From Bacteroidales bacterium (GTDB lineage Bacteria > Bacteroidota > Bacteroidia > Bacteroidales > UBA932): a stretch of DNA of 64,000 nucleotides. Location: NCBI GenBank assembly GCA_017631435.1, contig JAGBTG010000027.1, positions 1-64,000 on the forward strand. Direction: 5' to 3'. Shown piece after piece: positions 171 through 64,000 of the stretch. The number at the start of each line of letters is the position of its first letter. Position 1 is the first letter of the stretch. The translations under genes were made by a program, and so were the position numbers. A model generated the notes under the pieces. It made no database searches. It had not been told where the DNA came from and was given only the letters and a program-made list of their open reading frames with translations.

Positions 171-1511
171 TTTTATTTCATCTTTTTTGCAAATTGTCTG
201 TTCACCTGTTGTCTGATTTTTTATAACTACCGTTCCGTCAGCCACTTCCTGCTCACCAACAATTACAAAGTAAGGAACATTTTTCTTGGCTGCGTAATCA
301 AACTGTTTCTTGAGTTTGGTCTTGTCGGGATAAATTTCACAGTTGATTCCCTGCGCCCTCAAGCCTGCAATGATTGGGAGGGTGTATGCCACCTCTGCGT
401 CTCCCATGTTTGAGAAGAGCACTTTTGTACCCACAATTGCCTCTTTAGGGAATTTGTCCAAGCCTTGAAGCACGTCATAGATACGGTCTGCACCAAATGA
501 GATACCTACGCCGCTCATGCCAGGAAGGCCGAAGATGCCGGTAAGGTCATCGTATCTTCCGCCACCACAGATGCTGCCTATTGCAAAGTCTTTTGCCTTT
601 ACCTCAAAGATTGCTCCGGTGTAGTAGTTCAGGCCGCGGGCAAGTGAAAGGTCAATCTCCACCTCCTGTCTGATTCCTGCAACTGCAATGTATCCGAACA
701 ACTCCTCAAGTTCTGCAAGGCCTTTCAAGCCGGCCTCGCTGGATGCAAGGATCTCTTTCATGGTTGCAAGTTTCTCTGCAGTTGAGCCGCTCAATGTAAG
801 TACAGGCTCTATTGTTGCAATTCCATTCTCATCAATTCCTCTCTCTGTCAACTCGGCTTTTACTGCGTCAAGGCCTATTTTGTCAATCTTGTCAATTGCA
901 ACTGTAATGTCTACGAGTTTGTCGGGATGACCAATAACCTCTGCAAGTCCTTGAAGGACTTTTCTGTTGTTGATCTTGATGCATACGTTGATGCCGAATT
1001 TTGCAAATACCTCATCTACTATCTGTACAAGTTCAAGCTCATTGATGAGTGATTTGCTTCCAATTACGTCTACATCACACTGGTAGAACTCCCTGTAACG
1101 TCCTTTCTGAGGACGGTCTGCTCTCCAAACCGGCTGTATCTGGTAGCGTTTGAAAGGGAATGCAAGCTCGTTCTGGTGCTGTACCACGTATCTTGCAAAC
1201 GGTACTGTAAGGTCGTATCTGAGACCTTTCTCGCACACTTTCAATGAAAGGGCGTTGCTGTTTTCAAGTTCTTCCGGCTGAACTTTTGAGAATGCATCAC
1301 CGGAGTTGAGAATCTTGAACAGCAGTTTGTCTCCCTCGTCACCGTATTTGCCCAACAATGTTGAAAGGTTCTCCATTGAAGGGGTTTCAAGCGGGTTGAA
1401 TCCGTATTTTTTGAATACCGAACGGATTGTGTCAAATATATAGTTTCTTCCTGCCATCTCGGCAGGTCCAAAGTCTCTTGTGCCCTTTGGAATGCTTGGT
1501 TTCTGCGCCAT
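162..1511 (-). CDS. hisS: histidyl-tRNA synthetase
   Basis: Charges tRNA-His with histidine in the cytoplasm; class II aminoacyl-tRNA synthetase, 449 residues. Class II motif 2 lies around [17 protein letters not shown]. The histidine-specific loop reads [10 protein letters not shown], followed by GGGRYDDL. Motif 3 is in [12 protein letters not shown]-terminal anticodon-binding domain follows ([16 protein letters not shown] onward). The start lies one base after the stop of the upstream flavoprotein gene, so the two are probably cotranscribed. The family call is secure. Confidence 0.97.
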
Positions 1512-1512
1512 T

Positions 1513-2901
1513 TTATTTCTTCTTGTTCTTTAAATATTCGTCAATTGATGCAGCTGCCTTCCTTCCTGCACCCATAGCCAGGATTACTGTTGCTGCTCCC
1601 GACACCGCATCTCCACCGGCAAATACACCTTCTCTGGTTGTAACACCGTTTTCATCTGCCTGAATGCCGCCTTTGCGGTTTTTCTCAAGGCCTTTGGTTG
1701 TCTGGGCAATAAGCGGGTTAGGTGCTGTACCCAATGCCATGATAACCACATCCGCGTCTACTGTGAAGTGGGAATCCGGAACTGCTACCGGCGATCTTCT
1801 GCCACTTGCATCAGGCTCGCCCAACTCCATCTGCTCGCATTTGAGGCCGGTTACCCAACCTTTATCGTCTCCAACCACCTCAACAGGGTTGGTAAGAAGC
1901 TGGAATTTCACTCCCTCCTCTTTTGCATGATGAACCTCTTCTGCCCTTGCAGGAAGTTCCTTCTCAGTTCTACGGTATACTACAGTAACCTCTGCCCCAA
2001 GACGCAATGCAGTTCTTGCAGCATCCATGGCAACGTTACCGCCACCCACAACACAGACCTTGTTTCCTACATAAATAGGAGTTCTGGAATCCTCTTTATA
2101 GGCCTTCATAAGGTTGCTTCTGGTAAGGAACTCGTTTGCGGATACCACTCCGTTCAAGTTCTCACCAGGGATATCCATAAATTTTGGAAGACCTGCACCA
2201 CTGCCAATGAAGACAGCATCAAAGCCCTCCTTCTCAAACATATCGTCAATTGTAAGGGTGCGTCCCACTACAACATTGGTCTCTATCTTAACACCCAACT
2301 TCTTCACATTCTCAATCTCATGGGCAACTACTGTGTCTTTAGGAAGCCTGAACTCAGGGATACCGTATGTAAGTACACCACCGGCCTTGTGAAGTACCTC
2401 AAAGATTGTTACGTCATAACCCATCTTTGCCAAGTCACTTGCACAAGCAAGACCACCAGGGCCACTTCCAACAACAGCAACCTTAAAGCCGTTTGCAGGT
2501 GCTTTTGTTGCCACAGAGACATTGTTCTCCCTGCACCAGTCAGCAACAAAACGCTCAAGTTTACCAATGGACAAAGCATCCCCCTTTACACCAAGCACAC
2601 ACGAGCCTTCACACTGGTTTTCCTGAGGACAAACCCTTCCGCAAATTGCAGGAAGCGAACTGTCTATTGCAATCACCTTGGCAGCCTCCTCAAAATTGCC
2701 CTTTGCAATATGTGCAACAAAGAACGGGATCTTAACTGACACCGGGCATGCTGTCATACATGCAGGTTTCTTGCAGTTGAGACATCTTCTTGCCTCAAGC
2801 ATTGCCTCCTCATCTGTATATCCAAGGCAAACCTCCTTAAAGTTCTTTGCCCTTATCTGGGGATCCTGCTCCCTCACCGGTATTCTAGGTATTTTAGCCA
2901 T
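1513..2901 (-). CDS. GltD-like flavoprotein, NfnB/SudA-type subunit
   Basis: FAD- and NAD(P)-binding oxidoreductase of the glutamate synthase small-subunit family, 462 residues. The N-terminal domain carries two Cys clusters for [4Fe-4S] centres ([14 protein letters not shown] and [15 protein letters not shown]). An FAD-type Rossmann motif ([10 protein letters not shown]) and an NADPH-type motif ([12 protein letters not shown], followed by [10 protein letters not shown]) come next. The preceding gene overlaps it by one base and encodes the ferredoxin-reductase-like partner; no large glutamate synthase subunit is nearby. The pair therefore fits NfnAB (NADH-dependent ferredoxin:NADP+ oxidoreductase) or sulfide dehydrogenase SudAB better than true GltD. 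Whether it bifurcates electrons cannot be seen. Confidence 0.88.
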
Positions 2902-3755
2902 TATTTGCCCCTCCCTATTTTACATTTGTGATCTGCTTCAATCTCAATGTTCCTGTACATTGCCTGTCTGCGCATAGCCTCGTCAAAGTCTACATCGTAG
3001 GCATTGAACTCAGGGCCCTCCACACACGCAAAGCGCACTTTGCCGGCTACTGTTACCCTGCAGGCACCGCACATTCCTGTACCGTCAACCATAAGTGTAT
3101 TCAAACTTACAACCAGCGGAAGATTGAACTTCTTGGCAGTAAGGGTAACGAACTTCATCATTATCATAGGGCCAATGGCTACTGCCTGGGTATACTCCTT
3201 GCCCTCTGCAATAAGTTCCTCGAGTTTCTGGGTAACAAGGCCCTTGAAGCCTTTAGATCCGTCATCGGTACAGATATACAGGTTATCACACACCTGCTGC
3301 ATCTCTTTCTCCAGGATAACAAGGTCTGCACTCTTGGCTCCAAGGATAACATCTACCTTAGCTCCCTTTTCATGGAAATATTTTGCCTGTGGATATACAG
3401 GTGCTGTACCCAATCCACCCGCTATGAAGACGAATGACATTTTTGCCAATTCCTCGTCGGGAAGAGCAATGAATTCAGATGGCTGCCCCAAAGGACCTAC
3501 CACATCTGCAAAATGCTCCCCCTCCTCTTTGGCGCAAATCTCCTTGCTGCTGGCGCCAATGGCCTGGGTTACAATTGTTACAGTACCTTTTTCCCTATTA
3601 TAGTCACAAACGGTAAGTGGAACCCTTTCACCATCCTCATCAGACCTTACAATAAGAAACTGCCCTGACTGGGCAGAAGCTGCCAACCTTGGGGCCTCCA
3701 CCTCCATAAGGGTGATTACCGGGTTAAGTACCTCTTTCCTTACTATCTTATACAT
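2901..3755 (-). CDS. ferredoxin-NADP+ reductase-like subunit, NfnA/SudB-type
   Basis: Sulfide/dihydroorotate dehydrogenase-like FAD/NAD-binding protein, 284 residues. The N-terminal beta-barrel has the flavin-binding RVPLT motif. A nucleotide-binding domain follows (FIAGGLGTAPVYP). A C-terminal Cys cluster (MCGACRVTVAGKVRFACVEG) should hold a [2Fe-2S] centre. Its stop overlaps the next start as TAATG, indicating translational coupling with the GltD-like partner. Together they likely exchange electrons between NAD(P)H and ferredoxin. Confidence 0.88.
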   Translation of the reverse strand: MYKIVRKEVLNPVITLMEVEAPRLAASAQSGQFLIVRSDEDGERVPLTVCDYNREKGTVTIVTQAIGASSKEICAKEEGEHFADVVGPLGQPSEFIALPDEELAKMSFVFIAGGLGTAPVYPQAKYFHEKGAKVDVILGAKSADLVILEKEMQQVCDNLYICTDDGSKGFKGLVTQKLEELIAEGKEYTQAVAIGPMIMMKFVTLTAKKFNLPLVVSLNTLMVDGTGMCGACRVTVAGKVRFACVEGPEFNAYDVDFDEAMRRQAMYRNIEIEADHKCKIGRGK

Positions 3756-3767
3756 ATCTTATATAAT

Positions 3768-6269
3768 TTACTCTATTTCATTCAATGACTTGAAGTTGTA
3801 ACCTCTCAACTTCATCTCTTCAATTATCTCACCCAAACGGTTGTACAGCCTGTCTGTACGCTCCTCTGCCACTCCCGGATGGATAAGGATAATTGCTCCG
3901 TTCAAACCGTTCTGTTTCTCAAATGCATAAAGCTTGTCTATAAGCTGCTGTGAGCTCTTGTAGCTTTTCATTGAAGGGGTAGTATAGTCTGCAGGGGTTG
4001 CAGTGCCCGGTGTGTAGTTGAGCACCTTGTAGCCCAGACTCTCTGTAAGCTGCACACTCTCACGGTTATAGTATTCGTATGGAGGAAGGAACCAGCTTGA
4101 GTTCTCTTTGCTCACTCCAAACTTTTCCAATTCCCTTGCATTGGCTTTGATATCCTCAAGGATCTGGTCATAGGTTACAATCAGCGAATCCCTGTTGCTC
4201 CACTCAGCATACAGCATATGTGAATCCGAGTGTCCTCCAACATAGTGCCCCTCCTTAATGATTTTCTCAATCATATCCTTGTGCTCCTCAAGTCTCAAAG
4301 CGTTTCCGGTAAAGAAGAACGAACCTTTTATCTTCTTCTTTTTAAGGGTCTTCACTATTGTCTCTGCTCCCTGGAACAATGAATCTGCTGTAAACACAAG
4401 GTATATGTCCTTCTTATCAGGATTGATTCTAACCACACAATCGTATGCATCCTTCTCCACATTCAGGCTCTTCTGTTTTCTGCCCATTTCTGCCATTGCT
4501 GAAAAATAGTATGTCAGGCCTGCTGAACCGTCCATTGTTGGCTCATTTGAAGCGTAATCGCCAAGATCATCATGGTAAACCGCCTCACCATTATTGAATA
4601 CTGCATACTCATCTGGTTTGGTAAGGGACCCACCAGCCCTCTCCTCAAAAAGATCCTTCTGGATAGGGCCGTCAATCAGACCTCCAGGAGTAATGTCATT
4701 CCACACCACAAGATAAGAAGAGTGAGGATATTTAGGATAATCGGCAATCTCAGGATAACCCACAATCATAGTTGTACCCCAAGGGTTACATCCAAGCAAC
4801 CAATCCCTTAGAGCCATCTCCATCTCCACAAATGTTGAGTCTCCCGACGAAATATTGTACAATCTTGCATAACTCACAGCTGCCGAAGTAAGATTGTTCG
4901 AACACCATAGGTAAGGAACTCCATGCATGAACGGATCATCGGCACCCCTTTTCTGCAACATCTCAAGACCAAGTTTCATGAAACGCTGGTATTTCTTGGC
5001 AACTTTCTCATCAGCACTTCTCGACTGGAGGAAGTGTCCCAAGTTGATGAATGGATACCACTGATAGTGGTGGTACTCACCCCTTCTGCCGGTCTCCATC
5101 CAAGGGGTTACAGGCTCAAGGTCTCCCCAATAGTCTGCCTTCTTCTTCCACTCAGGCATGCCGGTAAACTCTGCAAGGGTTGCCGCTGCAAGCTCAAGGT
5201 CGTCTACATATGAATCCTCCTCGTAGAAGTATGGTGAAACAAGACATGCTGTCTGTGTATTGCCAGGGAACTCCTCACCAAACGCAAAAGCCTGTGTTGC
5301 CTTAATCTGCATCACATTGGCAAGCTTAGGGTCAATATCCTTGAACAATTTTGCACCCAAAGCAAAAGTTGATGCAAACTTGCCCGCGGTAGATGCCACA
5401 CCTGTTGTGCGGTTAATGTACTTGCCCAATCCCTGAGGTTTTCCGGTCACAAAGTACACAGGTCTTCCTGTACCGGGGCCCCAACCGTAATCCACAGAAT
5501 CTCTATGAGGCACCCTGAATCCTGCATGATCCCTGTCGCCTGCAACCTGGTTGAACATCACCTTATCCTCAGGATTCATTCTGTTGAGCCACTCAAGTCC
5601 CCATTTTGCCTCATCAAGGATGTCGGGAATACCATTTGAACCTTTTCTGCCGTTTGCAAGGTATTCATCCTTAAAGACGGATTTGTCCTCAGCCATATAG
5701 TATGCGAACATCATATGGTAAGTTGCTGTAGCTGAGGTTGTCTGGTACTGCAAGTAATCTGTTGCATCATGCCATCCGCCCCTTACGTCTATCTTCTCCC
5801 CGTTACGGGTAGGATGATCCACTATATAGCCGTCGTGCTGGTGGCAAAGGGTATCTGTATAAGGATTGTCACCGCAACGCTGCTGTCTCATATACACAAG
5901 CATGAAGTCTGCTAGGCCCTCATATACATCAGCTCCAATCCTGAAGTTTGGAGATTTTGCACCTGCGCACTCAATATAGTAGCCGCCTTCCTGCTTGAGG
6001 TTGCTGAAGTTCAACCTGTACGCAGAAGCCATGCCCCATTTCTTGCCGCTCACTGCCTTTGTTGTACCGGTAAACACAACATCACCGGTAACAGCATCAC
6101 ATACATTGAACTGCTCCGCTTGAGCGTCTTCTGTAGAAATAAACACTGCAACCTTCACATCTGCAGGCAAATAACCCACACTGTTAACCCTCACCCACTT
6201 CTGGGCCATCAGCTGCATACTGCAGGCCAATATGGCAATTAGAAACAACAGTCTTTTCATGCTACACAT
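3768..6269 (-). CDS. secreted GH9 glycosidase fused to CE4-type deacetylase domain
   Basis: Predicted two-module carbohydrate-active enzyme of 833 residues. A signal peptide (about 1-23) is followed by a CelD_N Ig-like domain (25-110) and a GH9 catalytic domain (about 115-595). GGWHDATDY supplies the Asp pair (168, 171), and NEPTMDGSAG carries the probable acid Glu 576. A NodB/CE4 domain spans about 620-830. Its zinc motif HSDSH (680-684) and IILIHPG are intact, but the usual TFDDG motif reads FTADS, with one Asp missing. The start may be the internal ATG at 6260 (MKRLL), which gives a more usual signal peptide. ILAC could also act as a weak lipobox. Substrate is not evident. nfnA follows after 12 bases. 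Confidence 0.88.
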   Translation of the reverse strand: MCSMKRLLFLIAILACSMQLMAQKWVRVNSVGYLPADVKVAVFISTEDAQAEQFNVCDAVTGDVVFTGTTKAVSGKKWGMASAYRLNFSNLKQEGGYYIECAGAKSPNFRIGADVYEGLADFMLVYMRQQRCGDNPYTDTLCHQHDGYIVDHPTRNGEKIDVRGGWHDATDYLQYQTTSATATYHMMFAYYMAEDKSVFKDEYLANGRKGSNGIPDILDEAKWGLEWLNRMNPEDKVMFNQVAGDRDHAGFRVPHRDSVDYGWGPGTGRPVYFVTGKPQGLGKYINRTTGVASTAGKFASTFALGAKLFKDIDPKLANVMQIKATQAFAFGEEFPGNTQTACLVSPYFYEEDSYVDDLELAAATLAEFTGMPEWKKKADYWGDLEPVTPWMETGRRGEYHHYQWYPFINLGHFLQSRSADEKVAKKYQRFMKLGLEMLQKRGADDPFMHGVPYLWCSNNLTSAAVSYARLYNISSGDSTFVEMEMALRDWLLGCNPWGTTMIVGYPEIADYPKYPHSSYLVVWNDITPGGLIDGPIQKDLFEERAGGSLTKPDEYAVFNNGEAVYHDDLGDYASNEPTMDGSAGLTYYFSAMAEMGRKQKSLNVEKDAYDCVVRINPDKKDIYLVFTADSLFQGAETIVKTLKKKKIKGSFFFTGNALRLEEHKDMIEKIIKEGHYVGGHSDSHMLYAEWSNRDSLIVTYDQILEDIKANARELEKFGVSKENSSWFLPPYEYYNRESVQLTESLGYKVLNYTPGTATPADYTTPSMKSYKSSQQLIDKLYAFEKQNGLNGAIILIHPGVAEERTDRLYNRLGEIIEEMKLRGYNFKSLNEIE

Positions 6270-6295
6270 TCTTTTCCTAAAATTATTATATCCAA

Positions 6296-6917: not shown

Positions 6918-9227
6918 CTATTTCCACATGGTGTATCTCATTCCAATGTAGAACATCCTTCCCATAAGAGGGCCCCAGACCATTGAGGCGTTGAAATCCT
7001 TGCCGTAAGGGGCAGTTGCGTTCATGATAGGGTTCTTCTGGGTATAGTTGGTGATGTTCTCAACACCCACATACACATCTACAAGGTTGAGTTTCTTGGT
7101 AATCTGGGCAAACATCATAGGGTAGATGTCGCTCTCTCCTCCGCCCATGAACTGAGGCAGCTTGCAAGGTCCGTTCAACTGTGCAGTAGCGTCAAATGTC
7201 CATTTGTTCATTGGAGTTGCATACTGCAAATTCAATACCGCCTTGTATTTGCTTGTCATAGGGGCATCCACCAGACCCTGGTTCTTCATTGACATCTTTG
7301 CATTGCTGTATCTGAAGGTTGCAATAGCGGTGAATCTCTCAATTGGCTCTACCGACAAATCAAACTGATAGGTATCTGTATATGCCTGGTTGTTGCCCAT
7401 TGTAGCCTCTGTAATATCGTAGATATCAACAGTATTGCCTGCCAAGCCCGAATCCCAGTCATAAACTACTTTATGGTTGAAAGTGCTCCTGAAATAATCA
7501 AAGCTGAAGTAGTTGCTCTCCCTTCCGCCAATATTGAAGTACTGGGTAAAGTTACCTCCGAATGTCCATGCATCCTCTGCTGTAATCTTGTCTGAAATGT
7601 TCAAGCCCCTTCCGCTCGACATCACGCCAAGGTTGTCTGTAATGATATATGGAGTCCTGAATCCCCTGCCTCCGGTAAGCCTTACAATTGTCTGGTCTGA
7701 GAAAGAGTATTTGAAGCTTGCCCTTGGAGCCACCTGCCATCCGTAAAGCGAACTGTAGTCTGCCCTCAAGCCTGCTACAAGGGAGATCTTCTCGTCCAAG
7801 GTGTAGGTATACTCGCCATAAGCACCCATCACCTCCTCTTTCACACTTGAATTCCATGTCTTGAATCTGTCGGGAGCAATAGTGCTGTGGTCTTTGTACT
7901 GGCTCTGCACATCATCAAGTCTGCCGCTCAAACCAACAGTAAACTGATGGTTGTCGTTGATGGTATGGTGATACATGGCATTGAAGAAGCCCATGTTCTG
8001 GTATCCGCCAAAATCCTTGATACCATAGCTGCTCTCCATATCATAATATGAATAATCTGCAACCACTGCCACGTTCTTTGTCTGGTCTTCGTTCAACGGA
8101 ATGCCAAGTTTGAAGAAACCGCTCACACCGGTATTGTGGATCTCATTGCCCCAGATACCCATATCGTATGCCTTGCCAAGAAGCGAGCTTCCCTCACCCC
8201 TCTCATTCATACCCTCCTCATAATCCTTGTGGCCTCCAATTCTGGTATCGTTCACAAACTTTGCACCAAATCTCACCTGTGTACCGTTAGGGTTGAAGTA
8301 CAGCCACCTGTTGTCAAAGTTGAACTGCTGTGTAAGGGGATCATCCCTGAAGGTATCATCGTTGCCGTCATGAACCTTATTGTCCTTAGAGAAATGGCCC
8401 ATCATAACTGTGCTCCATTTGTCATTCCACTGAAGGGATGATGCAACGTTTGCCTCAGTCCTCAAATTGTTGTTGAGGAAAAGGTTGATGAACAGAGGAT
8501 TCTCTGCTGTAGGCTTCCTGTGCTCCACATTGATCTGGCCGGTAATGGCCTCAAGACCGTTCACAACTGAAGAAGGTCCTTTTGCAATCTGGATACTCTC
8601 CAGCCACTGGCCCGGGATATAGGTAAGTCCAAAAGGAGAAGCAAGCCCCCTCATCACAGGACGGGTCTCATCCAACATCTGGGTGTAGCTTCCCGACAGT
8701 CCCAACAGTTTAATCTGTTTGGCACCGGTAACGGCATCCGAATATCCCACACTCACACTTGCCGAACTCTCAAAACTCTCAGCCAATGAACAGCATGCCA
8801 TCTTGCAAAGGCCTGCCGCAGAAATCACCTCTGTCTTGATGCTGGTGGTCTTTGAGAGGAAGTTTGACTGCTGGCGTCCGGTTACGGTAACCTGGTCAAG
8901 CTCATTCTCAGGCTCAAGGACAAACTCAATAGCCGCACCCGGAAGGAGATTCACCCCGTTCTCATACAGTTTGATGGTATCAGCCTTATATCCCACATAG
9001 GCTGCAATAAGGGTAATGTTGTCACCCTTGATTGATTTGAAAGTAAAGTTACCCTCCTCGTCGGCCTCAACCACACTCTTCTGCTCCATCCACCATACAT
9101 TGGAGAATGCACCGGGCTCCTTCTCCTTAAGGGCGTTGAGAATGTAAACCTTACCGTTTATTTTCTGTGCTGCTGCAAATGTACTGCATGCAAACACCAA
9201 TAGAATCAGTGTAAAAAATCTTTTCAT
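6918..9227 (-). CDS. TonB-dependent outer-membrane receptor, probably metal-related
   Basis: Outer-membrane beta-barrel transporter, 769 residues. A signal peptide (about 1-20) is followed by a carboxypeptidase-regulatory-like domain (22-105) and a plug domain (about 110-235, with IQIAKGPSSVVNGLEAITGQ). A C-terminal barrel ends in an aromatic-rich strand (GMRYTMWK). The plug start has an unusual Cys cluster (Cys 141, 145 and 146 in GLCKMACCSL), which could bind a metal ion. No SusD partner follows; its neighbours are a HYC_CC_PP protein and an HMA protein, so metal or metallophore transport is more likely than glycan import. Confidence 0.88.
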   Translation of the reverse strand: MKRFFTLILLVFACSTFAAAQKINGKVYILNALKEKEPGAFSNVWWMEQKSVVEADEEGNFTFKSIKGDNITLIAAYVGYKADTIKLYENGVNLLPGAAIEFVLEPENELDQVTVTGRQQSNFLSKTTSIKTEVISAAGLCKMACCSLAESFESSASVSVGYSDAVTGAKQIKLLGLSGSYTQMLDETRPVMRGLASPFGLTYIPGQWLESIQIAKGPSSVVNGLEAITGQINVEHRKPTAENPLFINLFLNNNLRTEANVASSLQWNDKWSTVMMGHFSKDNKVHDGNDDTFRDDPLTQQFNFDNRWLYFNPNGTQVRFGAKFVNDTRIGGHKDYEEGMNERGEGSSLLGKAYDMGIWGNEIHNTGVSGFFKLGIPLNEDQTKNVAVVADYSYYDMESSYGIKDFGGYQNMGFFNAMYHHTINDNHQFTVGLSGRLDDVQSQYKDHSTIAPDRFKTWNSSVKEEVMGAYGEYTYTLDEKISLVAGLRADYSSLYGWQVAPRASFKYSFSDQTIVRLTGGRGFRTPYIITDNLGVMSSGRGLNISDKITAEDAWTFGGNFTQYFNIGGRESNYFSFDYFRSTFNHKVVYDWDSGLAGNTVDIYDITEATMGNNQAYTDTYQFDLSVEPIERFTAIATFRYSNAKMSMKNQGLVDAPMTSKYKAVLNLQYATPMNKWTFDATAQLNGPCKLPQFMGGGESDIYPMMFAQITKKLNLVDVYVGVENITNYTQKNPIMNATAPYGKDFNASMVWGPLMGRMFYIGMRYTMWK

Positions 9228-9304: not shown

Positions 9305-9808
9305 CTATATTCTGAAAGTGCAAAGCTCCGCCTGCAGCCCAACACTTTGGGGCAGCAGAGGCTCGCCATACTCAATATCCTTCACACACATCTGGAACTG
9401 GTCCATCAGTTCCAACGCGCCGGCATCCCACATTACAGATGCGAGAAGTTGCGGTTGAGGAACGTCCCATTGGGTGGAATCATTGGTATTCTGGTCATGT
9501 GTAAGGACATATACACTTGTAGAACAGCAGCCTTCATGGCCATTCTCCCCTTCGTTCTGAGGTGCATCATGGTGATGGTGGGTGCACCCGTGGGAGCAAC
9601 TGTGGTCGTCGGGATGATGGGCATGTGTATATGTGTTACCGTTGGAATCTGTGTGGGAATGGACATACTCACATGGGGTCTCACCAAACAGCAGAATAAG
9701 GGATGCGGTCCCCTCGGCATTGCATTTGTGCACGCCATAGCCCATGGTTGAAACCACATATAGAGCGGCAACCATGATGAACAACATATCCCTCATTATT
9801 TGTTTCAT
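9305..9808 (-). CDS. HYC_CC_PP-family protein, His-rich
   Basis: Exported or membrane-anchored protein of 167 residues. A hydrophobic N-terminus (MLFIMVAALYVVSTMGYGVH) is followed by HKC, a His cluster (HTDSNGNTYTHAHH, CSHGCTHHHH) and GHEGCC. The spacing of His, Cys and the CC pair matches the small Bacteroidota family named HYC_CC_PP, often found beside TonB receptors and HMA proteins. Metal binding is inferred from composition and context. The -7 box lies only five bases before the ATG, so the true start may be Met 5 or the message may be leaderless. Confidence 0.7.
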   Translation of the reverse strand: MKQIMRDMLFIMVAALYVVSTMGYGVHKCNAEGTASLILLFGETPCEYVHSHTDSNGNTYTHAHHPDDHSCSHGCTHHHHDAPQNEGENGHEGCCSTSVYVLTHDQNTNDSTQWDVPQPQLLASVMWDAGALELMDQFQMCVKDIEYGEPLLPQSVGLQAELCTFRI

Positions 9809-11920: not shown

Positions 11921-11931
11921 CCTGTCGGGAA

Positions 11932-11994: not shown

Positions 11995-14790
11995 TTACAA
12001 TGTTCTCTTGATCTCAACAATCTGGTAAGCCTCAACAACGTCACCAACTTTAATATCGTTGTAGCCGTCGATGTTCAAACCGCAATCGTAGCCGCTGTTA
12101 ACCTCCTTAACATCGTCCTTGAAGCGTTTCAATGAACCAAGGCTTCCGGTGTAGATTACGATACCGTCGCGGATTACGCGCACTTTTGCATTTCTGGTAA
12201 GTTTACCCTCTTTAACCATACAGCCGGCAATTGTACCAACTTTAGAGATCTTGAAGGTCTCACGTACCTCTGCAGTTGCTGTAACCTCCTCTTTCTCCTC
12301 TGGAGCAAGCATACCCTCAATACCGCTCTTAACCTCGTTGATGGCATCGTAGATTACAGAGTAAAGCCTGATCTCAATCTCCTCGTTGTCTGCAAGTTTT
12401 CTTGCATTTGCAGAAGGTCTTACCTGGAATCCGATGATGATTGCATTTGATGCTGCAGCCAACAGTACATCAGACTCCGAGATGGCACCCACTGCCTTGT
12501 GGATAACGTTCACATGGATCTCCTCAGTTGAAAGTTTGATCAATGAATCGCTCAATGCCTCAATTGAACCGTCCACGTCACCCTTGATGATAACGTTAAG
12601 CTCCTGGAAGTTTCCAATTGCAATACGGCGTCCGATCTCCTCCAAGGTAATGTGTTTCTGGGTTCTCAAGCCCTGGATACGCAATAGCTGCTCTCTCTTG
12701 TTTGCAATGTCCTTAGCCTCTTTCTCATCATCAAACACGTTGAAAGTCTCACCTGCATTAGGGGCACCGTTCAAACCAAGGATTGATACCGGAGTTGAAG
12801 GACCTGCCTCTGCAACTTTCTGACCGCGCTCGTTGAACATAGCCTTAACCTTACCTGTGTAGCAACCGCTAAGGATAACATCACCTACGCGCAAAGTACC
12901 TGCCTGTACAAGGATTGTAGCAAGGTAACCTCTACCTTTGTCCAATGAAGACTCAATAACGGTACCTACCGCTTTCTTGTTAGGGTTTGCCTTAAGCTCA
13001 AGCATATCTGCCTCAAGCAACACCTTCTCCAAAAGCTCCTCAATACCTATACCCTGTTTTGCAGAGATCTCCTGGCACTGGTATTTACCGCCCCAGTCCT
13101 CTACAAGGATGTTCATCTGAGAAAGCTGCTCCCTGATCTTGTCGGGATTAGCAGCCGGTTTATCTATTTTGTTGATTGCAAAGATCATTGGACAGCCTGC
13201 AGCCTGTGCGTGGCTGATAGCCTCAATGGTCTGTGGCATTATGGCGTCATCGGCAGCAACAATAATGATTGCAAGGTCGGTAACTTTTGCACCGCGGGCA
13301 CGCATTGCGGTAAACGCCTCGTGACCTGGGGTATCAAGGAATGCAATCTTTCTTCCGTTAGGCAATTTTACGTTATATGCACCAATGTGCTGGGTAATAC
13401 CACCAGCCTCACCGGCAATTACATTAGCTTTACGGATATAGTCGAGCAATGATGTCTTACCGTGGTCTACGTGACCCATTACGGTTACGATTGGAGGTCT
13501 CTCCTCAAGCATATCTGGGGTATCAACCTCGTTACCGCCATCAATGGTCTCCTGAATCTCTGCAGTTACAAACTCAATCTTGTATCCGAACTCCTCTGCA
13601 ACAAGTACAAGAGCCTCAGCATCTAGTCTCTGGTTGATTGACACCATAAGACCCAAGTTCATACAAGCCTCAATTACTTTAATTACAGGAGTGTTCATCA
13701 TTGTTGAAAGGTCGTTTACAGTAACAAACTCAGTAACTTTGAGAATGTTGCTGTTCATCATCTCCAACTCTTCCTCCTCCATCATTCTCTGAACGTTCTG
13801 CTCCCTCTTCTCCTTTCTGTATTTTGAGCCTTTGGTCTTGCCTTTGCCCTCAACCATTCTCTGGTAGGTCTCCTTTATCTGCTTCTGTACTGCATCCTCG
13901 TCAACCTCTACCTTTACAGGTTTGAATTTCTCTTTCTTGTTGCCTTTGCCGTTGTTCTGGTTCTTGCCACCCTGCTGTTTTGCAGCATTAGGGTTTGCGC
14001 CGTTACCAGGTTTGCCATTATTCTGGCCGTTGTTGTTTCCAGGTTTGCCATTGTTCTGTTTAGCCTCCTTAACAACGTCAACCTTCTCGTTCTTCTTGTG
14101 GATTCTCTCTCTCTTGCCCTTGTTCTTGTTCTCGGCAAAGTTGCCTTTCTTCTTATCCTTATCAAAGGCTGTAAGATCAATCTTACCTACAGTCTTCACA
14201 CCTGCAAGTTGCTCATATTTGGTCTCAATATGTGTAGACTGCGGCTTCTCAGACTCCTTTGCCTGTGCTTCAGGCTGTGGTTTCGCTGTTGGGGGTACAG
14301 GTGTCTGCTCCACTTTCGGGGTCTGTACAGCCTTCACTTCAGGCTGCGGCTTAACCTCCGGTTTCTCTACCGGTTTCTCTACTGGCTTGGTCTCCACTAC
14401 AGGCTGTGGCTTTTCTTCCACTTTAACCTCCTGCTTAGGCTCTGCCTTAGGCTTGTCCAAATCTATCTTGCCAAGGATCTTGGGACCTCTGACCTCTGTG
14501 ACTGTTGTTTTCACAAAGAGTTCCTTCTCTGGCTCCTTCTCCTCAATGGCTTTTGGCTCCTTGTCTGTAATGTCCTTAACCTTAATGGCCACCTTCTTTG
14601 ATTCCGCCTTTACAATCTGCTCCTTCTTGAACTCCTTTGCAACAAGAGCATACTGCTCACCGGTAAGTTTGGCACCCGGATTGGAATCTATGCTGATTCC
14701 CTTCTTGCGAAGGAACTCAACCAATGTACCCAATCCAATATTGAACTCTTTAAGGACTTTATTAATTCTGATGTTGTCGTTTTCTGTCAT
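11995..14790 (-). CDS. infB: translation initiation factor IF-2
   Basis: GTPase that brings initiator tRNA to the 30S ribosome, 931 residues. The N-terminal third is low-complexity (Lys/Pro/Glu/Gln repeats at about 90-190, Asn/Gly/Lys-rich at about 220-280). The GTPase domain begins near residue 436 with GHVDHGKT, then DTPGHEAF and NKID. Domains II to IV follow. Last gene of rimP-nusA-infB; 31 bases separate it from nusA. Confidence 0.97.
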
Positions 14791-27604: not shown

Positions 27605-27680
27605 ATATACTCCAAAAATTGTCGGGATGAAATGAAAAAATCTTTCACAAATTTAGAAGTATTTTCTCATTTTAAAGTTT

Positions 27681-31221: not shown

Positions 31222-31253
31222 AAATTTGTCGGGACTATAATCCCGACAAATTT
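31222..31253. terminator. terminator made of an inverted TGTCGGGA pair
   Basis: A perfect 13-bp stem (AAATTTGTCGGGA/TCCCGACAAATTT) with a 6-nt loop holds two copies of the dispersed 8-mer in opposite orientation. It lies just past the stop of the choloylglycine-hydrolase-like gene and serves as its terminator; the T/A flanks could work in both directions. Confidence 0.7.
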
Positions 31254-39692: not shown

Positions 39693-39713
39693 AAACTGTC
39701 GGGAAGATGACAA

Positions 39714-49181: not shown

Positions 49182-49215
49182 ACCGGGATTTTCTTCCCGA
49201 CAGATACTCATAAAA

Positions 49216-51151: not shown

Positions 51152-52966
51152 ATGGGTACACACAGAAAACATATGGCATTTGCATTTCTATCATTCCTGG
51201 CAGCAGGCATTTGCCTTGCAGCCACAGCAGTTGCCTTCAGGAAAGATTTTCTTACACAAAACATACATACAATACCTGTATTGCTGGTGGAGTTTTCAGA
51301 TACAGGGTTTACACTCAACAACCCTACTGAAATGTTCCACAACCAGCTCAACGGAAACGGCTACAGCCATAACGGGGCACAAGGCTGTGCAGCGGAGTAC
51401 TTCAACACCAACTTTCAAGGAACAGCAAGATTTGAATTTCCAATAGCTGCTCAAGTATCTCTCGACACCACTATTGCAACATATGGAGCCCACAGTGCCA
51501 CCTTTAATGATACTGATGTAACACAATTGCTCCTTGATGCCTGCACCGCAGCACAGGCCCAGGGAACAGACTTTTCCCTATTTGATCCCGACAACAACGG
51601 CACAATTGAGAACATCGCCATCATCTTTGCCGGATACAGCGAGTCTGAAGGGGCCAGTGCAGATGCCATATGGGCCCACCAGAAAACCCTACCGGATGAG
51701 CAGATAACCATCTGTGGCCTGCAGGTCCTCTCATATACCTGCACACCTGAGCTGAAGGGGAACTCCGGCACAGAGATCTCCTCCATAGGCACTTTCTGCC
51801 ACGAGATTGCCCACTCTCTTGGCCTTCCCGACATGTATGACACAAACTCCGATACAGAAGGGCTTTCAACTGCACTTTGCGGCACCCTCTCCCTGATGGA
51901 CAAGGGAAATGCTTCAGGAGATGGCAATACACCACCTTACTTCACCTCCATAGAGAGGGAAATTCTGGGCATTGGAGAGGTGGAAGACCTTGTCCCGGGA
52001 AAGGAATACACACTGGAACCGGTGAATCTGTCGGGAAAAATATACAGGATAAAATGTGCATCTGAGGGGGAATACTACCTTTTGGAATGCAGGCATCCCG
52101 AGGGGTGGGACAAACATATTGGAGGGGGTGGACTTGTGTTGTACCACATTGACAAATCTGAATCTGTGCACGGAGGGTTCAGCTGCGCAGAGAGGTGGAG
52201 TTTCAACAATATCAACTGTTTTGCCGAGCATCCGTGCGCTGTTGCCCTTATCCCATCTGCAGGAGATGTGGGCACTACATCCCCGTTCTTTCCGGGAGTC
52301 TGCAAGATTACCGGCCTGAATTCGGAGAACCCTGCAGCCAGGCTTGCAGACTGGAACGGTGAAGGGACAGGCATTGCCCTTACTGAGATATGTTATTCCA
52401 ACGGCACCGTAAGGTTCAGGACTCTGGAAGACTACTTCCCCTGCAGTTCACTGCCAAAAGCCATGGAGTGCAAGGTTGCAGCATACCAGAATGACGCCAG
52501 GATAGAATGGACATCAGTGCTTCCGGCACAGGATGGGCCACAGATGACCTGGAGGGTAAGATGGCAGGAAAAAGGGGCACAAGAATACAGCAGCACCATA
52601 GCCGATAACACTACGGTGTATCTGAGCGACCTTCAGCCCGGAACACAGTACAATGTTGAAATAAGGTGCATGAGGGGAATGCAGTTGGGGCAGCCTATGG
52701 AGATTAAAGTAAAGACCCAGCAGACAAGTTCCGATTTCCCATACATTCATATTGGCCATGAAGAGCTCGGTGTAGGGGACAAAATGGATCTTAGAATCAT
52801 GAACCTCCCGTCAGACTGCATTGGAGTAGAATGGAAATTTGGAGGAACAGGCGTTTCTTCGGATATCCTGATACTGGAATCATCGGGAACGGCAATACTG
52901 GAAGCAATTTTAAAATATTCAGATGGATCGGAAGAACACATATACAAAAAGATTACTGTTGAGTAG
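51152..52966 (+). CDS. secreted M6-family metallopeptidase with fibronectin type III domain
   Basis: Immune-inhibitor-A-like peptidase of 604 residues. An N-terminal hydrophobic signal (about 7-28) is followed by the M6 catalytic region with zinc motif HEIAHSLGLPDMYD. STALCGTLSLMDKGN is the downstream met-turn-like segment of the family. A fibronectin type III domain (about 435-515) and a C-terminal beta domain follow. It may cleave host or bacterial surface proteins. The next gene overlaps its end by 44 bases. Confidence 0.88.
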   Translation: MGTHRKHMAFAFLSFLAAGICLAATAVAFRKDFLTQNIHTIPVLLVEFSDTGFTLNNPTEMFHNQLNGNGYSHNGAQGCAAEYFNTNFQGTARFEFPIAAQVSLDTTIATYGAHSATFNDTDVTQLLLDACTAAQAQGTDFSLFDPDNNGTIENIAIIFAGYSESEGASADAIWAHQKTLPDEQITICGLQVLSYTCTPELKGNSGTEISSIGTFCHEIAHSLGLPDMYDTNSDTEGLSTALCGTLSLMDKGNASGDGNTPPYFTSIEREILGIGEVEDLVPGKEYTLEPVNLSGKIYRIKCASEGEYYLLECRHPEGWDKHIGGGGLVLYHIDKSESVHGGFSCAERWSFNNINCFAEHPCAVALIPSAGDVGTTSPFFPGVCKITGLNSENPAARLADWNGEGTGIALTEICYSNGTVRFRTLEDYFPCSSLPKAMECKVAAYQNDARIEWTSVLPAQDGPQMTWRVRWQEKGAQEYSSTIADNTTVYLSDLQPGTQYNVEIRCMRGMQLGQPMEIKVKTQQTSSDFPYIHIGHEELGVGDKMDLRIMNLPSDCIGVEWKFGGTGVSSDILILESSGTAILEAILKYSDGSEEHIYKKITVE

Positions 52967-55782: not shown

Positions 55783-55791
55783 AACAGACAA

Positions 55792-57198
55792 ATGGAACAT
55801 TTGAACAGCAAAATATTCAAGATAGTAGCCTCTGCAGCAAAAGAGCAGGGAGTAAGGGCCTTTGTAATAGGAGGCTTTGTAAGGGACTGCTTTCTCAAAA
55901 GGCCGAGCAAAGATATAGACATTGTTGTAGAGGGAAGCGGCATTGCCCTTGCTGAACTTGTTGCCAAGAAGGTTGGCAGCAAGCTTTCTGTTTTCAAGAA
56001 TTTTGGAACAGCCATGCTGCGCTACAAGGAAAACAGGGAGTCTGAATGGATAGAACTTGAGTTTGTAGGGGCCCGCAAAGAATCCTACAGAAGGGAATCA
56101 CGCAAGCCTATAGTGGAGGACGGCACCCTTGAAGAGGACCAGCAGAGAAGGGACTTTACTATAAACGCACTTGCTTTCAGCCTTCAGGAGGAGGACTTTG
56201 GTGCATTGGTAGACCCTTTCAACGGAATGGAAGACCTTAAAAACGGCCTTATCCGCACACCGCTTGATCCCGACACCACCTACTCGGACGATCCCCTGAG
56301 AATGATCCGTGCAATCCGCTTTGCCACCCAGCTCGGCTTTACAATTGTACCGGAATCCCTGGAGAGCATAAGGAGAAACAAGGAAAGACTCTCAATCCTT
56401 TCCCGTGAGAGGATAGCAGAGGAGCTCAACAAAATTCTCATGGCTGCAAAACCGTCAATAGGATTCTACCTTCTTGAGCAGACAGGACTGCTTGAGCAGT
56501 TCCTGCCTCAGATTAGCAAACTCAAAGGGGTTGAAACCCTGGAAGGAAAAGGGCACAAGGACATTTTCGCCCACACATTGCAGGTTTTGGACAATATCTG
56601 TCCCAATACAGATAACCTGTGGCTCAGATGGGCTGCACTGCTGCACGACATAGGAAAGCCAAGCACCAAGAAATATGAGCCCGGCACAGGCTGGACATTC
56701 CACAGCCACGATTTCATTGGAGGAAAGATGGTTCCGGGTGTATTCAAGCAGCTGAAAATGCCTCTGAACGAAAAGATGAAGTATGTACAGAAAATTGTAC
56801 AACTGCACCTGCGCCCAATTGCCCTTGCCCAGGAAGAGGTTACAGACTCGGCAGTTAGAAGGCTGCTGTTTGATGCAGGAGATGATGTAGATGACCTTAT
56901 GAAACTCTGCGAGGCCGACATCACCTCAAAGAACGACAAACTCGTACAGAAACACAAACGCAATTTTGCACTTGTAAGGGAAAAACTTATAGAAGTGGAG
57001 GCAAAAGATGCCATAAGGAACTTCCAGAACCCTATAAGCGGAGAGCTGATAATGCAGAAATACAATATCCCTCCAGGACGCGAGATTGGAATTATAAAGG
57101 AATATGTAAAGGAGGCAATCCTTGAAGGTATAATAGAAAACAACTATGAGCAGGCATACGCCCTCATGGAAAAAAAAGCAGCGGAAATGGGACTATAG
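55792..57198 (+). CDS. CCA-adding tRNA nucleotidyltransferase/poly(A) polymerase family, HD domain
   Basis: Adds or repairs CCA at tRNA 3' ends, 468 residues. The head has [21 protein letters not shown] with the catalytic Dx[12 protein letters not shown] follows, then the neck ALRFATQL-like region ([12 protein letters not shown]). A C-terminal HD domain has [11 protein letters not shown]. The initiator tRNA gene in this window lacks CCA, in line with need for this enzyme. The last six bases overlap the convergent gene. Confidence 0.92.
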
Positions 57199-58064: not shown

Positions 58065-58118
58065 CTCAAAAACATTTTAATTAAACCTCGTAAAGATACA
58101 AAAAAAAACGCACCCGGA

Positions 58119-58220: not shown

Positions 58221-58221
58221 T

Positions 58222-58254
58222 AAAAAAAGACAGCCGTGCAGGGCTGCCTTTTTT
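58222..58254. terminator. first terminator of the GH29 transcript
   Basis: Stem GACAGCC/GGCTGCC with one G-U pair, flanked by seven A on one side and six T on the other, so usable in both directions; about 130 bases after the fucosidase stop. Confidence 0.7.
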
Positions 58255-58385
58255 CAAAATAACAAAAAACCTATTTATAAATTAATAGAAATAAGTACAA
58301 GAAATAAAAATGGGCTTTTAATTTCAAAAGCATTACAAATATAATACTTTTTTATCCAAAACAAAGTTTTTGTGCTAAAAAATTA

Positions 58386-60392
58386 CTATCTGCCACTATA
58401 TTTTTTTATTGCAGGCAGAACTACAGCCTCAAAAATATCTCTTCTTATTATCCTGTAATGGGGCTTATATGCCTGATTATAAGTATCACTATGATGCACC
58501 ACATACTTACCCTCCTTAATTAGCGAAGATATGCGGGACGCATCCCTGGAAAATCCCTTTATACCCGGAGCTTTCTTCTTTACAACCCTCTTTATCACAT
58601 TCCACTCATCCAACCACTCCTGTGTAACATCAGGTTCCTGCCCGCCACCGGCAATAAAAGCATCCGCAAACTCTTCCACACTCATAATGCCGTCTGCAAT
58701 GACATCCAGACTTACCTGATAATAATTGTGCCTCCATCCGCACGGATCATAGTAGCTCTTTTCAGCAACGCAAGTCTGCACCGTATCCGCACCGGCCGCA
58801 CCAGCCTCCGCCGGATATACAACCATAGCCGGAGCCCTCTCCAATATCATCTTCTTCACTTCCCTGTTCAGGTAGCCAATAACCTGTTCCCTTGAAGCCA
58901 TAATATGGCTGGGCCCGAAATAGTCCTGAAAATTGCTCTTGTATATATCCTGAAGCGTAGCCTGCGGATAATTCCTGCACATCTGCTCCACAAAATTCTC
59001 CAATGCAACCATATCCACCGGTGCATAATCCAGTTCAACTACCCTCATATCTGCAGGAGAGGATGCATTTTTCTCCCCCAACTGAACTGTAATACCTCCC
59101 TCAACTTTCCGGTATTTTAGAGGGGACCCATCGGGAAAACTCCTGCACTCAACTATACCTGTATCCTCCAATGGTACAAAAATCTCTGTTGTATCCTTGA
59201 ACACATGGAGGAAATTCCTGTGCCCCTTCCTGGTTGAAACTCCCCACGGCTGCTCCGGAACAAGGCCGGCTGTGGTTCCATAAATGGTCTCACCATAGAT
59301 ATCCATCCACTCACCAATAGCTTTCAGGCGTACCAATGATTCGTCGGGAAGAGTACCATCAGGTCTTGGACCAATATTCAGAAGAAGGTTTGCCCCCTTT
59401 GCTGCGGTCTGCACAAGGTATTTTATAAGGAAATCCACAGATTTGTAGGTGGTATCTGTAATCCTGTATCCCCAGGAGCGGTTCATTGTCTGGCAGGTTT
59501 CCAGCGGCAGCACCGTGCTTATGGCCTGCTCGGAGTAACCGTAAAGGTTCTGGCCGGGGATATCCCTCTCAAAAATCTGGATATCCTCTCCAGGGAACGG
59601 ATCCATATGGTGGTTGTTTCCCACAAGACATGAAGGCTGCAGCTTATGGATAAGCGAATACTGGGCTGCAAGGTTCCAGGTTTCTGCCTTGAGGCCATTC
59701 TCCTGCCGGTCGCGGTCCCACAGGCCGTCAAACCAGATTGCTCCAATGGGACCATAGTTTGTAAGGAGTTCCGTAAGCTGGGTATCCATAAATTTGAGGT
59801 AGTTCTCATATGCCCAATTGGTCTGGAACACCGCAGAATCAATCTGTGGAAGTTTCTGACCATTGAAATATCCGGTTCTGCCCGTTCCACGGCCGGTACG
59901 TCCTACAGGATAATAATCCTCCCTACCCCAGTCTATATGGGAATAGTAAAGGTGGAGCCTTACCCCCTGCTTGTGGCACTCATCTGCAATCTCAGCCAGA
60001 ATATCCCTTTTGAAAGGGGTGGCATCAACGGAGTTGTAAGGGCTTGCCTTGGTATGGAAAATGGAAAATCCATCATGGTGTCTTGAGGTAATGCATATAT
60101 ATTTTGCTCCCGACAGTTTTATTGCCTTCACCCACTCGTGGGCATTGAAGTTCACAGGATAGAACCCTCCTGCCAGTTTCTCATACTCTTTGTAATTGAT
60201 CTTCTTATTGTGCATTACCCACTCACCGTCACCCAACATGGAGTAAATTCCCCAATGGATGAATATTCCAAAACGGGCCTGGTCAAACTCCTGTCTGCTC
60301 TGCATGTTCTGTGGAGAGGGAACATATCCCGGCTGTGCTGAAGCCACAAATGGGACAAGGGCCAAAAGCACACACATTAGTTTTAATTTCAT
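58386..60392 (-). CDS. secreted GH29 alpha-L-fucosidase fused to a conserved C-terminal domain
   Basis: Fucosidase of 668 residues. A signal peptide ends at ASAQ (20). The GH29 barrel spans about 25-375: FGIFIHWGIYSMLGDGEW, SRHHDGFSIF, and the nucleophile Asp 222 in GAIWFDGLWD. A beta-sandwich follows (about 375-460). From about 462 an extra domain begins with NYPQATLQDIYKSNFQDYFG, then CGWRHNYYQVSLDVI and VVHHSDTYNQAYKPHYRI. From memory, this domain is usually a separate small exported protein in Bacteroides relatives; here it is fused. It probably trims fucose from host mucin or plant glycans. Confidence 0.9.
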   Translation of the reverse strand: MKLKLMCVLLALVPFVASAQPGYVPSPQNMQSRQEFDQARFGIFIHWGIYSMLGDGEWVMHNKKINYKEYEKLAGGFYPVNFNAHEWVKAIKLSGAKYICITSRHHDGFSIFHTKASPYNSVDATPFKRDILAEIADECHKQGVRLHLYYSHIDWGREDYYPVGRTGRGTGRTGYFNGQKLPQIDSAVFQTNWAYENYLKFMDTQLTELLTNYGPIGAIWFDGLWDRDRQENGLKAETWNLAAQYSLIHKLQPSCLVGNNHHMDPFPGEDIQIFERDIPGQNLYGYSEQAISTVLPLETCQTMNRSWGYRITDTTYKSVDFLIKYLVQTAAKGANLLLNIGPRPDGTLPDESLVRLKAIGEWMDIYGETIYGTTAGLVPEQPWGVSTRKGHRNFLHVFKDTTEIFVPLEDTGIVECRSFPDGSPLKYRKVEGGITVQLGEKNASSPADMRVVELDYAPVDMVALENFVEQMCRNYPQATLQDIYKSNFQDYFGPSHIMASREQVIGYLNREVKKMILERAPAMVVYPAEAGAAGADTVQTCVAEKSYYDPCGWRHNYYQVSLDVIADGIMSVEEFADAFIAGGGQEPDVTQEWLDEWNVIKRVVKKKAPGIKGFSRDASRISSLIKEGKYVVHHSDTYNQAYKPHYRIIRRDIFEAVVLPAIKKYSGR

Positions 60393-60477
60393 AGTCTTGA
60401 ACGGTTGTATCTTATAATTTACAGTTAGTAAAAGTATAAAAAATTACTTAACTTTACACCCTCTAATTCAAATTCTT

Positions 60478-63118: not shown

Positions 63119-63138
63119 ATATCCTTCATCCCGACAGT

Positions 63139-64000
63139 TTATTTCACCCACACGTTGAGTATCTCGCCTATGTACATCTTGTGCATTGGCTGCGCTGCCC
63201 TTTTTGCCCTTTCTGCAGGATCTGCAATTGCATCCGGTGAAAGGGACTGTGAAAGCATCTTCCTGCACTCCACCACCATCCAGGCCTGTGAGAATGCCAT
63301 TGCACCATTCTCAGTCTCCATTGGGGTAAGACCGGAACCTTTTACCTTGTCCTCATCCCTACCGGATTTGGTACCGCAATACTGGAGGGCATCCCTGTAA
63401 GCCTCTGTATAGAAAGTAAGTGTAAAGGTATCTGAACCTTCTATTACAGAATAGGTATATCTTGCAGGATTTATAAAACATATTGCCACCGGCTTGTTGT
63501 ACAGGATTCCAAAACCTCCCCAGCTGGCTGTCATCATATTGAACTTCTCCCTGTTGCCAGCAGTTATGAGCATCCAGTCCTGTGAAATCATCTTCATTAC
63601 ATTGCCGGGGATTTTGTCGGGAGCAATCTTCCTGTACCCTTCCATTCCTGAACTTTGATTCTCTGGGACTGCGGCGGTCTGCTGAGGCTGATATACCTGC
63701 TGAGGCTGCTGGACTGCCACTGCCGGAGCAACTGTCTGCTGGGGTGCTGCAGGTTGGGATGCTGCCGGTTGAGGTGCAGTTGCCGCAATCTGTGGCATCA
63801 CCTTGGAGAGTTCCGCCACACCTTCAACGCTGCAATACTTCATCCCTTCCCTGAAAGAGGCAAACGCCTCCTGGGCCGCATCTATTGTCTTCCTCCTGAA
63901 CTTACCGGTAATTGGAAGGAGTTTTGTCCCCTTCTTGTTAACCGCATCTGCGTATGTGATATAGTCCTCGGCTAAAATTGTCTCATTTCCGGTACCGTCA
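63139..64000 (-). CDS. flavin-reductase-like domain protein, truncated by the window edge
   Basis: The frame stays open to the right edge, so the N-terminus is missing. The visible part starts with about 70 residues (LPITGKFRRKTIDAAQEAFA and so on) I cannot assign. A Pro/Gln/Ala-rich linker comes next (VAVQQPQQVYQPQQTA). A C-terminal FMN-binding flavin-reductase-like domain follows (NVMKMISQDWMLITAGNREK, then NMMTASWGGFGILYNKPVAI). A FMN-dependent redox partner role is likely. The upstream domain would need the neighbouring sequence. Confidence 0.75.
   Translation of the reverse strand, partial: DGTGNETILAEDYITYADAVNKKGTKLLPITGKFRRKTIDAAQEAFASFREGMKYCSVEGVAELSKVMPQIAATAPQPAASQPAAPQQTVAPAVAVQQPQQVYQPQQTAAVPENQSSGMEGYRKIAPDKIPGNVMKMISQDWMLITAGNREKFNMMTASWGGFGILYNKPVAICFINPARYTYSVIEGSDTFTLTFYTEAYRDALQYCGTKSGRDEDKVKGSGLTPMETENGAMAFSQAWMVVECRKMLSQSLSPDAIADPAERAKRAAQPMHKMYIGEILNVWVK

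Follow-up and report, generated by a model that had tools for sequence, protein, structure and literature searches.

The subject of this study is a short DNA motif found throughout a window of 64,000 nucleotides (nt), the whole stretch analyzed here, from a Bacteroidales bacterium of the UBA932 lineage (GCA_017631435.1, contig JAGBTG010000027.1, positions 1 to 64,000), which we examined as a candidate DNA uptake or self-recognition sequence. The commonest 8-mer of the window is TGTCGGGA, which an exact count places on the forward strand at 323..330, 920..927, 5621..5628, 7868..7875, 11923..11930, 13140..13147, 17092..17099, 20432..20439, 27620..27627, 30299..30306, 31227..31234, 34263..34270, 39697..39704, 43197..43204, 43221..43228, 47815..47822, 52029..52036 and 63615..63622, and on the reverse strand at 1597..1604, 8691..8698, 15704..15711, 18150..18157, 27347..27354, 29076..29083, 31241..31248, 31464..31471, 33918..33925, 36958..36965, 37102..37109, 46263..46270, 49195..49202, 51586..51593, 51826..51833, 56268..56275, 60108..60115 and 63129..63136. 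A scan for GTCGGGA adds ten CGTCGGGA variants, forward at 3455..3462, 9607..9614, 32139..32146, 46379..46386 and 59342..59349 and reverse at 4842..4849, 22292..22299, 23723..23730, 30500..30507 and 38046..38053. The recount bears out the 36 exact copies, 18 in each orientation, that an initial annotation of this DNA had counted by eye, and 100 dinucleotide shuffles of the window give a mean of 0.96 copies and at most 4. The same annotation saw no A or G before GTCGGGA at its 46 sites, which is exact for the window (T 36, C 10) and holds for most of the 209 sites in a larger sample of 301 kb (T 139, C 65), where G (4 sites) and A (1 site) also occur. As a separate observation, the second most frequent 8-mer in window positions 1-64000 is TTGAGGAG, with 24 copies.

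The larger sample comes from the source genome of the window (G000; 2.17 Mb, 59 contigs, 88% complete) and combines the window with 12 further stretches, with the overlapping stretches L001-L008 excluded and sites near stretch ends dropped for the sequence logo. Across these 301 kb the single-change neighborhood of the word is sharp: TGTCGGGA occurs 139 times versus 5.2 expected, CGTCGGGA 65 times versus 2.2 and TATCGGGA 29 times versus 3.1, and every other single change of TGTCGGGA has at most 12 copies. With the first G of GTCGGGA counted as position 0, A stands at +9 in 78% of the 209 GTCGGGA sites and T in only 2%; a pyrimidine (C or T) occupies -2 in 87%, and positions +10 and +12 lean toward A. 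The motif therefore extends past the 8-mer at which the initial annotation had ended it, mainly through the A three bases on, present in 37 of 46 window sites. From the sharp core neighborhood together with a flanking A common to all site classes with more than 20 members, we derive a DNA motif of ~12 bp, YYRTCGGGAnnA, with the core [CT][AG]TCGGGA. A relative assembled as a single contig of 2.23 Mb (G003) carries the form CYRTCGBGA; there, 98% of the 84 GTCGGGA sites have C at -2, and positions +9 to +14 are rich in A. The motif is enriched 1.5 to 2.5 fold in intergenic DNA.

The excess of TGTCGGGA is not a codon effect. When synonymous codons within called genes and dinucleotides within the gaps were shuffled 100 times, the word had a mean of 1.4 and a maximum of 4 copies, versus 36 observed in the window. 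By our open reading frame caller, 6 of the 36 window copies are intergenic, close to the "about seven" first reported, and the 30 genic copies lie in both orientations (opposite to the gene in phase 2, 16; with the gene in phase 1, 10; with the gene in phase 2, 3; opposite in phase 1, 1). Such a register preference, which persists among 251 sites of the larger sample (118 opposite in phase 2, 71 with the gene in phase 1), is what a codon-usage or protein-motif effect would produce, and this explanation is nonetheless exceedingly improbable given the shuffles and the 24 of 251 sites that are intergenic and share the flanking A. At +9, A makes up 81% of opposite phase 2 sites, 69% of same-strand phase 1 sites, 81% of same-strand phase 2 sites and 92% of intergenic sites, with T at 0-1%; three classes of only 2-9 sites have A at 50-56% and T at 17-50%. 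The earlier argument that several reading registers leave protein conservation insufficient thus stands, with the registers uneven.

A genome-wide count, which the initial annotation had recommended together with a survey of related genomes and a search for competence genes, gives 915 copies of TGTCGGGA (468 forward, 447 reverse) versus 89 of the reversed word (48/41). The motif recurs about once per 1,200 bases, and in the part of the genus that has it the density is ~0.8 copies/kb. We compared 39 genomes of the genus, calling a genome rich in a word if it holds at least 200 copies. TGTCGGGA is rich in 13 of the 39, the same motif thereby recurring in relatives, and a different word, CTCRGCGAT, is rich in 11; no genome is rich in both and 15 are rich in neither. 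The second motif emerged from four TGTCGGGA-poor genomes sampled at 120-140 kb each, all of which have other excess words, CTCRGCGA and TCRGCGAT. It exceeds synonymous shuffles (82 copies versus at most 25 in G157, for example) and lies in both orientations and also between genes. CTCRGCGAT has 274-817 copies in its 11 rich genomes (reversed word 5-20) and 2-34 in the 13 TGTCGGGA-rich ones. Motif densities are 0.83/kb in G000 for the form [CT][AG]TCGGGA (0.42/kb for TGTCGGGA alone), 0.78/kb in G003 and 1.0/kb for the second motif, near the one site per kb at which the DNA uptake sequence (DUS) and uptake signal sequence (USS) stand as the strongest over-represented word of their genomes. Samples of G161 (76 kb) and of G010 from another genus (80 kb) contain no word with a z-score above 8.1, so not every species has a tag this strong.

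The strand distribution of the motif bears on two rival explanations. As in the DUS and USS systems, copies are equally divided between strands in the window (18/18) and in the genome (468/447), and among twelve 20-kb stretches of G003, 9 with clear GC skew and three (skew under 0.05) left out, sites split 45 versus 41 relative to the skew, which is local and from which replichores were not drawn. This agrees with the initial annotation, which had seen no strand bias and had proposed the skew comparison. Neither the orientation bias of Chi nor the terminus-directed orientation of FtsK-orienting polar sequences (KOPS) appears in the genome counts or the G003 skew split, and the lack of strand bias speaks against KOPS and the usual oriented Chi. 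Chi sites are over-represented octamers that lie mostly in coding DNA, and the high, genome-wide and mostly coding distribution of the octamer TGTCGGGA could likewise arise if AddAB or RecBCD paused at the motif and started recombination there, so that copies accumulated. A Chi site of this group could exist undescribed, as none appears in the titles and abstract openings of the open-licence papers among the matches listed. We consider a Chi-like signal unlikely, since besides its balanced strands the motif has degenerate positions, A-rich flanks that in G003 extend to ~14 bases beyond the first G, and the intergenic enrichment given above, and since one genus holds two different motifs and 76 kb of a third species hold none. 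A second alternative, to which we give a still smaller chance, is a binding site for a chromosome-organizing protein acting in nucleoid structure, segregation or replication control. Spacing in G000 is even, as such a site might be (variance/mean 0.63 in 5 kb bins, nominal P 0.011; 0.51 in 10 kb bins, nominal P 0.016; nominal P 0.07 in 20 kb bins; largest gap 5.5 kb in 301 kb), but the evenness is missing in G003 and in the second-motif samples, the orientation bias that KOPS needs is absent, and many sister species show no enrichment of the motif.

Restriction sites tend to be avoided rather than enriched in genomes. This counts against a third alternative, in which a defense system, whether of restriction, methylation or another kind, would use the motif to tell self from non-self; the species specificity of the motif and its presence on both strands would suit such a mark, but the motif is neither palindromic nor bipartite and has A-rich flanks, and we hold this explanation to be very unlikely. 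Of 38 motif 8-mers aligned with three relatives at 77-80% identity (L009-L011), 15 are fully intact, compared with 16-22% of the other 8-mers (binomial p 0.0016 for a background of 18%, with sites shared between relatives and so not independent); the remaining sites have diverged freely. Within 22 kb, each relative nevertheless has 8 to 12 sites of its own. Individual sites turn over while density is kept, as would be expected of a tag and not of local regulatory sites.

The distribution of the motifs was set against a gene tree. A tree of ComEC, a single fast-changing gene, covers 30 of the 39 genomes, leaves 9 of 27 inner branches open and lacks the TGTCGGGA-rich genomes G154, G162 and G164; within it, all 10 TGTCGGGA-rich rows present fall in one 13-row branch (support 97/95). 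The other three rows of this branch are G027 (23 copies), G149 (117) and G130 (112), and G168 (154 copies) lies outside on a very long branch. In a wider search of 149 genomes of the family and 295 of the order, every genome outside the genus stays below 400 copies of TGTCGGGA; the highest counts belong to a family member of 3.5 Mb (380 copies) and an order member of 2.9 Mb (334 copies). In one genus of the family (g19), 11 genomes have 183-380 copies versus 32-99 of the reversed word, and we rejected this word as the same motif: 85 kb from five of the genomes hold 17 copies versus 6.8 expected, and the A at +9 is absent (13/36). Samples of genera g16 and g22 (80 kb each) show no TGTCGGGA excess, and those of other genera (9-20 kb) are too small to decide.

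Competence genes are widespread in the genus: ComEC matches occur in 38 of 39 genomes, as do DprA matches. The ComEC gene of G000 lies at G000:C2:20781-21527; ComEC is short and very divergent within the genus. A second, weaker DprA-family match occurs at G003:C1:1183485, G165:C4:23031 and G061:C20:1737. Within the phylum, a transposon screen in Riemerella anatipestifer found ComEC, DprA, ComF and RecA essential for transformation, together with one DUF5689 protein, one DUF1343 protein, one helix-hairpin-helix protein and a carboxypeptidase-regulatory-like protein whose predicted location is the outer membrane (PMC8459023). Self-preference exists in the phylum, since a preference for self-DNA is reported for both Riemerella columbina and R. 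anatipestifer (PMC7965970). The DNA-uptake machinery of Porphyromonas gingivalis is described as mostly unknown in the accessible portion of a competence paper (PMC11532111), where the terms "uptake sequence", "uptake signal" and "specific sequence" are lacking. Titles and abstract openings of the open-licence literature, among the matches listed, name no uptake motif in Bacteroidota.

The Riemerella screen directs attention to DUF5689 (PF18942), which is present in 21 of the 39 genus genomes, 15 of them with a form of 340 amino acids (aa). This form occurs in 11 of 11 second-motif genomes and in no TGTCGGGA-rich genome (Fisher p 8e-7, the genomes being related and not independent), a co-occurrence that may have been inherited together through kinship. 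The 340-aa protein has a lipoprotein-like start, and its gene follows that of a 980-aa CarboxypepD_reg barrel; this pairing with a CarboxypepD_reg barrel is complete or partial in each of the 15 genomes that have the form, and the DUF5689 gene plus the 980-aa barrel occur in all 11 second-motif genomes and 4 of 28 others, none TGTCGGGA-rich. The operon further encodes an Exo_endo_phos_3 protein, a nuclease with BACON and Endonuclease_NS domains, a BACON protein and a peptidase M3. We read its order in five genomes (G157, G150, G108, G074 and G161), with Pfam names from G157 and for one gene from G150; it lies at L101:5578-15998 (G157) and also in L102-L104 and L107, and L105 and L106 have the same gene sizes. 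A nuclease match lies within ~2 kb of the barrel in 10 of 11 second-motif genomes, the match in G171 being a weak fragment at a contig end. This conserved operon looks like a DNA capture or scavenging system. A search of solved structures with the DUF5689 alignment gave no evidence of a fold: the best two matches (E 0.058 and 0.066) are nucleases at the profile end, presumably matching the nuclease part of two rows, and the third is a replication factor A chain (E 0.54). An oligonucleotide/oligosaccharide-binding (OB) fold for the lipoprotein is an idea suggested by the consensus.

A different form of DUF5689 occurs in the TGTCGGGA-rich genomes G086, G140 and G156, in one reading frame with Endonuclease_NS and beside another barrel. 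Six genomes (G086, G140, G156, G061, G130 and G149) have this fused frame, with loci next to an OMP_b-brl_4 barrel at L110:2682-10309 (G086) and L108:1878-9459 (G061). DUF5689 has no match in the TGTCGGGA-rich genomes G000 (88% complete), G153, G154, G155, G158 and G164, and at that completeness G000 contains neither searched type of barrel and no Riemerella-type locus. Three candidates were examined and rejected. The 1068-aa barrel was considered as the TGTCGGGA receptor, and it or a relative at 37-40% identity is found in 33 of 39 genomes at E 1e-20. Weak matches to the 980-aa barrel in ten genomes (E 1e-8 to 1e-15) were dismissed as receptors after examination of two loci, which match each other and of which the annotated one encodes a TonB-receptor-like protein beside aro genes. 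Endonuclease_NS as a link to dialect was discarded: it occurs in 29 of 39 genomes and 10 of 13 TGTCGGGA-rich ones and is absent from G003, G045 and G169. Separately, a stand-alone Endonuclease_NS DNA/RNA endonuclease of 307 aa lies at G000:C26:75809-76438, 12 kb past the window end.

In the properties that gave a clear result on testing (density, strands, exclusive motifs and flanks), the motif is by analogy like an uptake sequence. We judge it moderately probable that the TGTCGGGA motif is an uptake or self-recognition sequence of a pilus-independent form of natural transformation. Of the functions that the initial annotation had offered (uptake, recombination or nucleoid signal), uptake is favored over Chi and KOPS because of the genome-wide excess, the failed codon explanation, the lack of strand bias, the exclusive sister motif, the A-rich flanks and the presence of ComEC and DprA; a receptor and pilus machinery were sought and not found. 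From this pattern we infer competence, preferential uptake, a receptor and uptake as the driving force. A candidate surface or outer-membrane receptor would bind the double-stranded motif, giving the DNA of close relatives precedence in uptake, and ComEC and DprA would pass the DNA inwards to RecA. Preferential uptake and recombination would then let copies accumulate genome-wide, on both strands and in many frames, and with sister species carrying CTCRGCGAT and some carrying neither, the tag would define who exchanges DNA with whom. A more specific version, which we advance as a tentative and rather doubtful possibility, is that sequence-specific uptake here is pilus-free and has two dialects, the second read by the barrel, the DUF5689 lipoprotein and the nuclease, and TGTCGGGA read by some other counterpart.

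A number of results weigh against an uptake function. The type IV pilus and type II secretion ATPase (PF00437) passes the cut-off in 0 of 39 genus genomes, with 13 of 14 controls passing; short matches below the cut-off occur in 31 of the 39, and the pilins themselves were not searched. Because the type IV pilus typical of DUS and USS systems is lacking by this measure, we do not file the motif as a member of either. ComEC and DprA occur as well in the 15 genomes that are rich in neither motif, and two TGTCGGGA-rich genomes, both incomplete, lack a match, G162 for ComEC and G155 for DprA. The ComEC proteins are short, with 354-479 aa in 29 of 30 tree rows, the three proteins scanned contain the Competence domain only, and 12 of 38 matches have stop codons inside the matched stretch. 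We know of no transformation in this genus. No gene among DUF5689, the two barrel types and Endonuclease_NS tracks the TGTCGGGA dialect across the 39 genomes, and the 1068-aa barrel is absent from the TGTCGGGA-rich genomes G000, G153, G154, G155, G158 and G164. The 340-aa DUF5689 form also occurs in G161, G163, G165 and G173, which have only 28-57 copies of CTCRGCGAT; because these four motif-poor genomes carry it too, the tie of the operon to the second dialect is a lead only. In the ComEC tree the second-motif rows, 11 in all, are spread over three branches (8, 2 and 1 with G175) instead of forming one supported clade, so a single origin of that dialect is not supported. At the level of sites, mean identity at motif positions (0.81, 0.75 and 0.76) is no higher than background (0.80, 0.77 and 0.77) in the three aligned relatives, and ten proteins from 6 of 10 motif-poor gaps longer than 6 kb are ordinary (rpoB, EF-Tu, TonB receptors), with none mobile. 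The 251 sites form 8 close pairs (4 convergent, 2 divergent and 2 tandem), no more than the 8.2 that chance predicts, and intergenic inverted pairs are few, with 3 in 301 kb and one clear case in the window. That case, the pair at 31227 and 31241 singled out by the initial annotation, is real: its arms form an intergenic 13-bp stem with a 6-base loop at 31222..31253 (-18 kcal/mol, z -5.5) that is likely a terminator.

The motif can be set beside the known systems. The USS of Pasteurellaceae has a short strict core and A/T-rich flanks, occurs at ~0.8/kb on both strands and serves type IV pilus uptake. The motif described here shares the strict core, the A-rich flanks, a density near 0.8/kb and the use of both strands, and differs in the core itself, in the phylum and in the type IV pilus machinery that USS uptake uses. 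In Neisseriaceae, the DUS is the most over-represented word of the genome, with ~1,900 copies of the classic 10-mer, its dialects are in line with phylogeny, and five family members have no obvious DUS (PMC3630211, in the parts available to us). The present motif is similar in being the top over-represented word, in having dialects in relatives and in being missing from some species, and the two exclusive motifs of the genus resemble DUS dialects. All DUS dialects share a CTG core according to the accessible text, whereas the two motifs here have no obvious common core; the DUS is read by a type IV pilus system (PMC3868556, in part), whereas PF00437 stays below the cut-off here; and function is shown for the DUS, whereas our motif is known from sequence. 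Unlike Chi, the octamer lacks strand bias, has flanking A positions and is replaced by a different motif within one genus. The likeness to Riemerella transformation, drawn by domain type and not by comparison of its proteins in sequence, consists in the shared phylum, in ComEC and DprA and in the domain types of the second-motif operon. In the portions of the Riemerella reports available to us no uptake motif is named, and G000 lacks DUF5689 and the searched barrels.

Most known uptake sequences come from Neisseriaceae and Pasteurellaceae, two families that have type IV pili, and gene exchange in this gut lineage is usually put down to conjugation. If the uptake reading is true, motif-guided self-recognition arose independently and without type IV pili in gut Bacteroidales. 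It would then offer a direct way into how Riemerella, Porphyromonas and other Bacteroidota take up DNA, and a practical means of making such species transformable.

Two further repeated words came to light in the related genomes. The palindrome ATCGCGAT is over-represented in the second-motif genomes G074, G097 and G150, with 24-28 copies versus 3.2-4.1 in synonymous shuffles, each site being counted on both strands; it may be a separate signal, and TTATCGCGAT is prominent with it in the same samples. In G016, from another genus of the family, L245:5077-5540 holds 12 copies of TTTGCCTAAGCAA in ~460 bp, mostly intergenic and in one orientation, which looks like an iteron or regulatory array.

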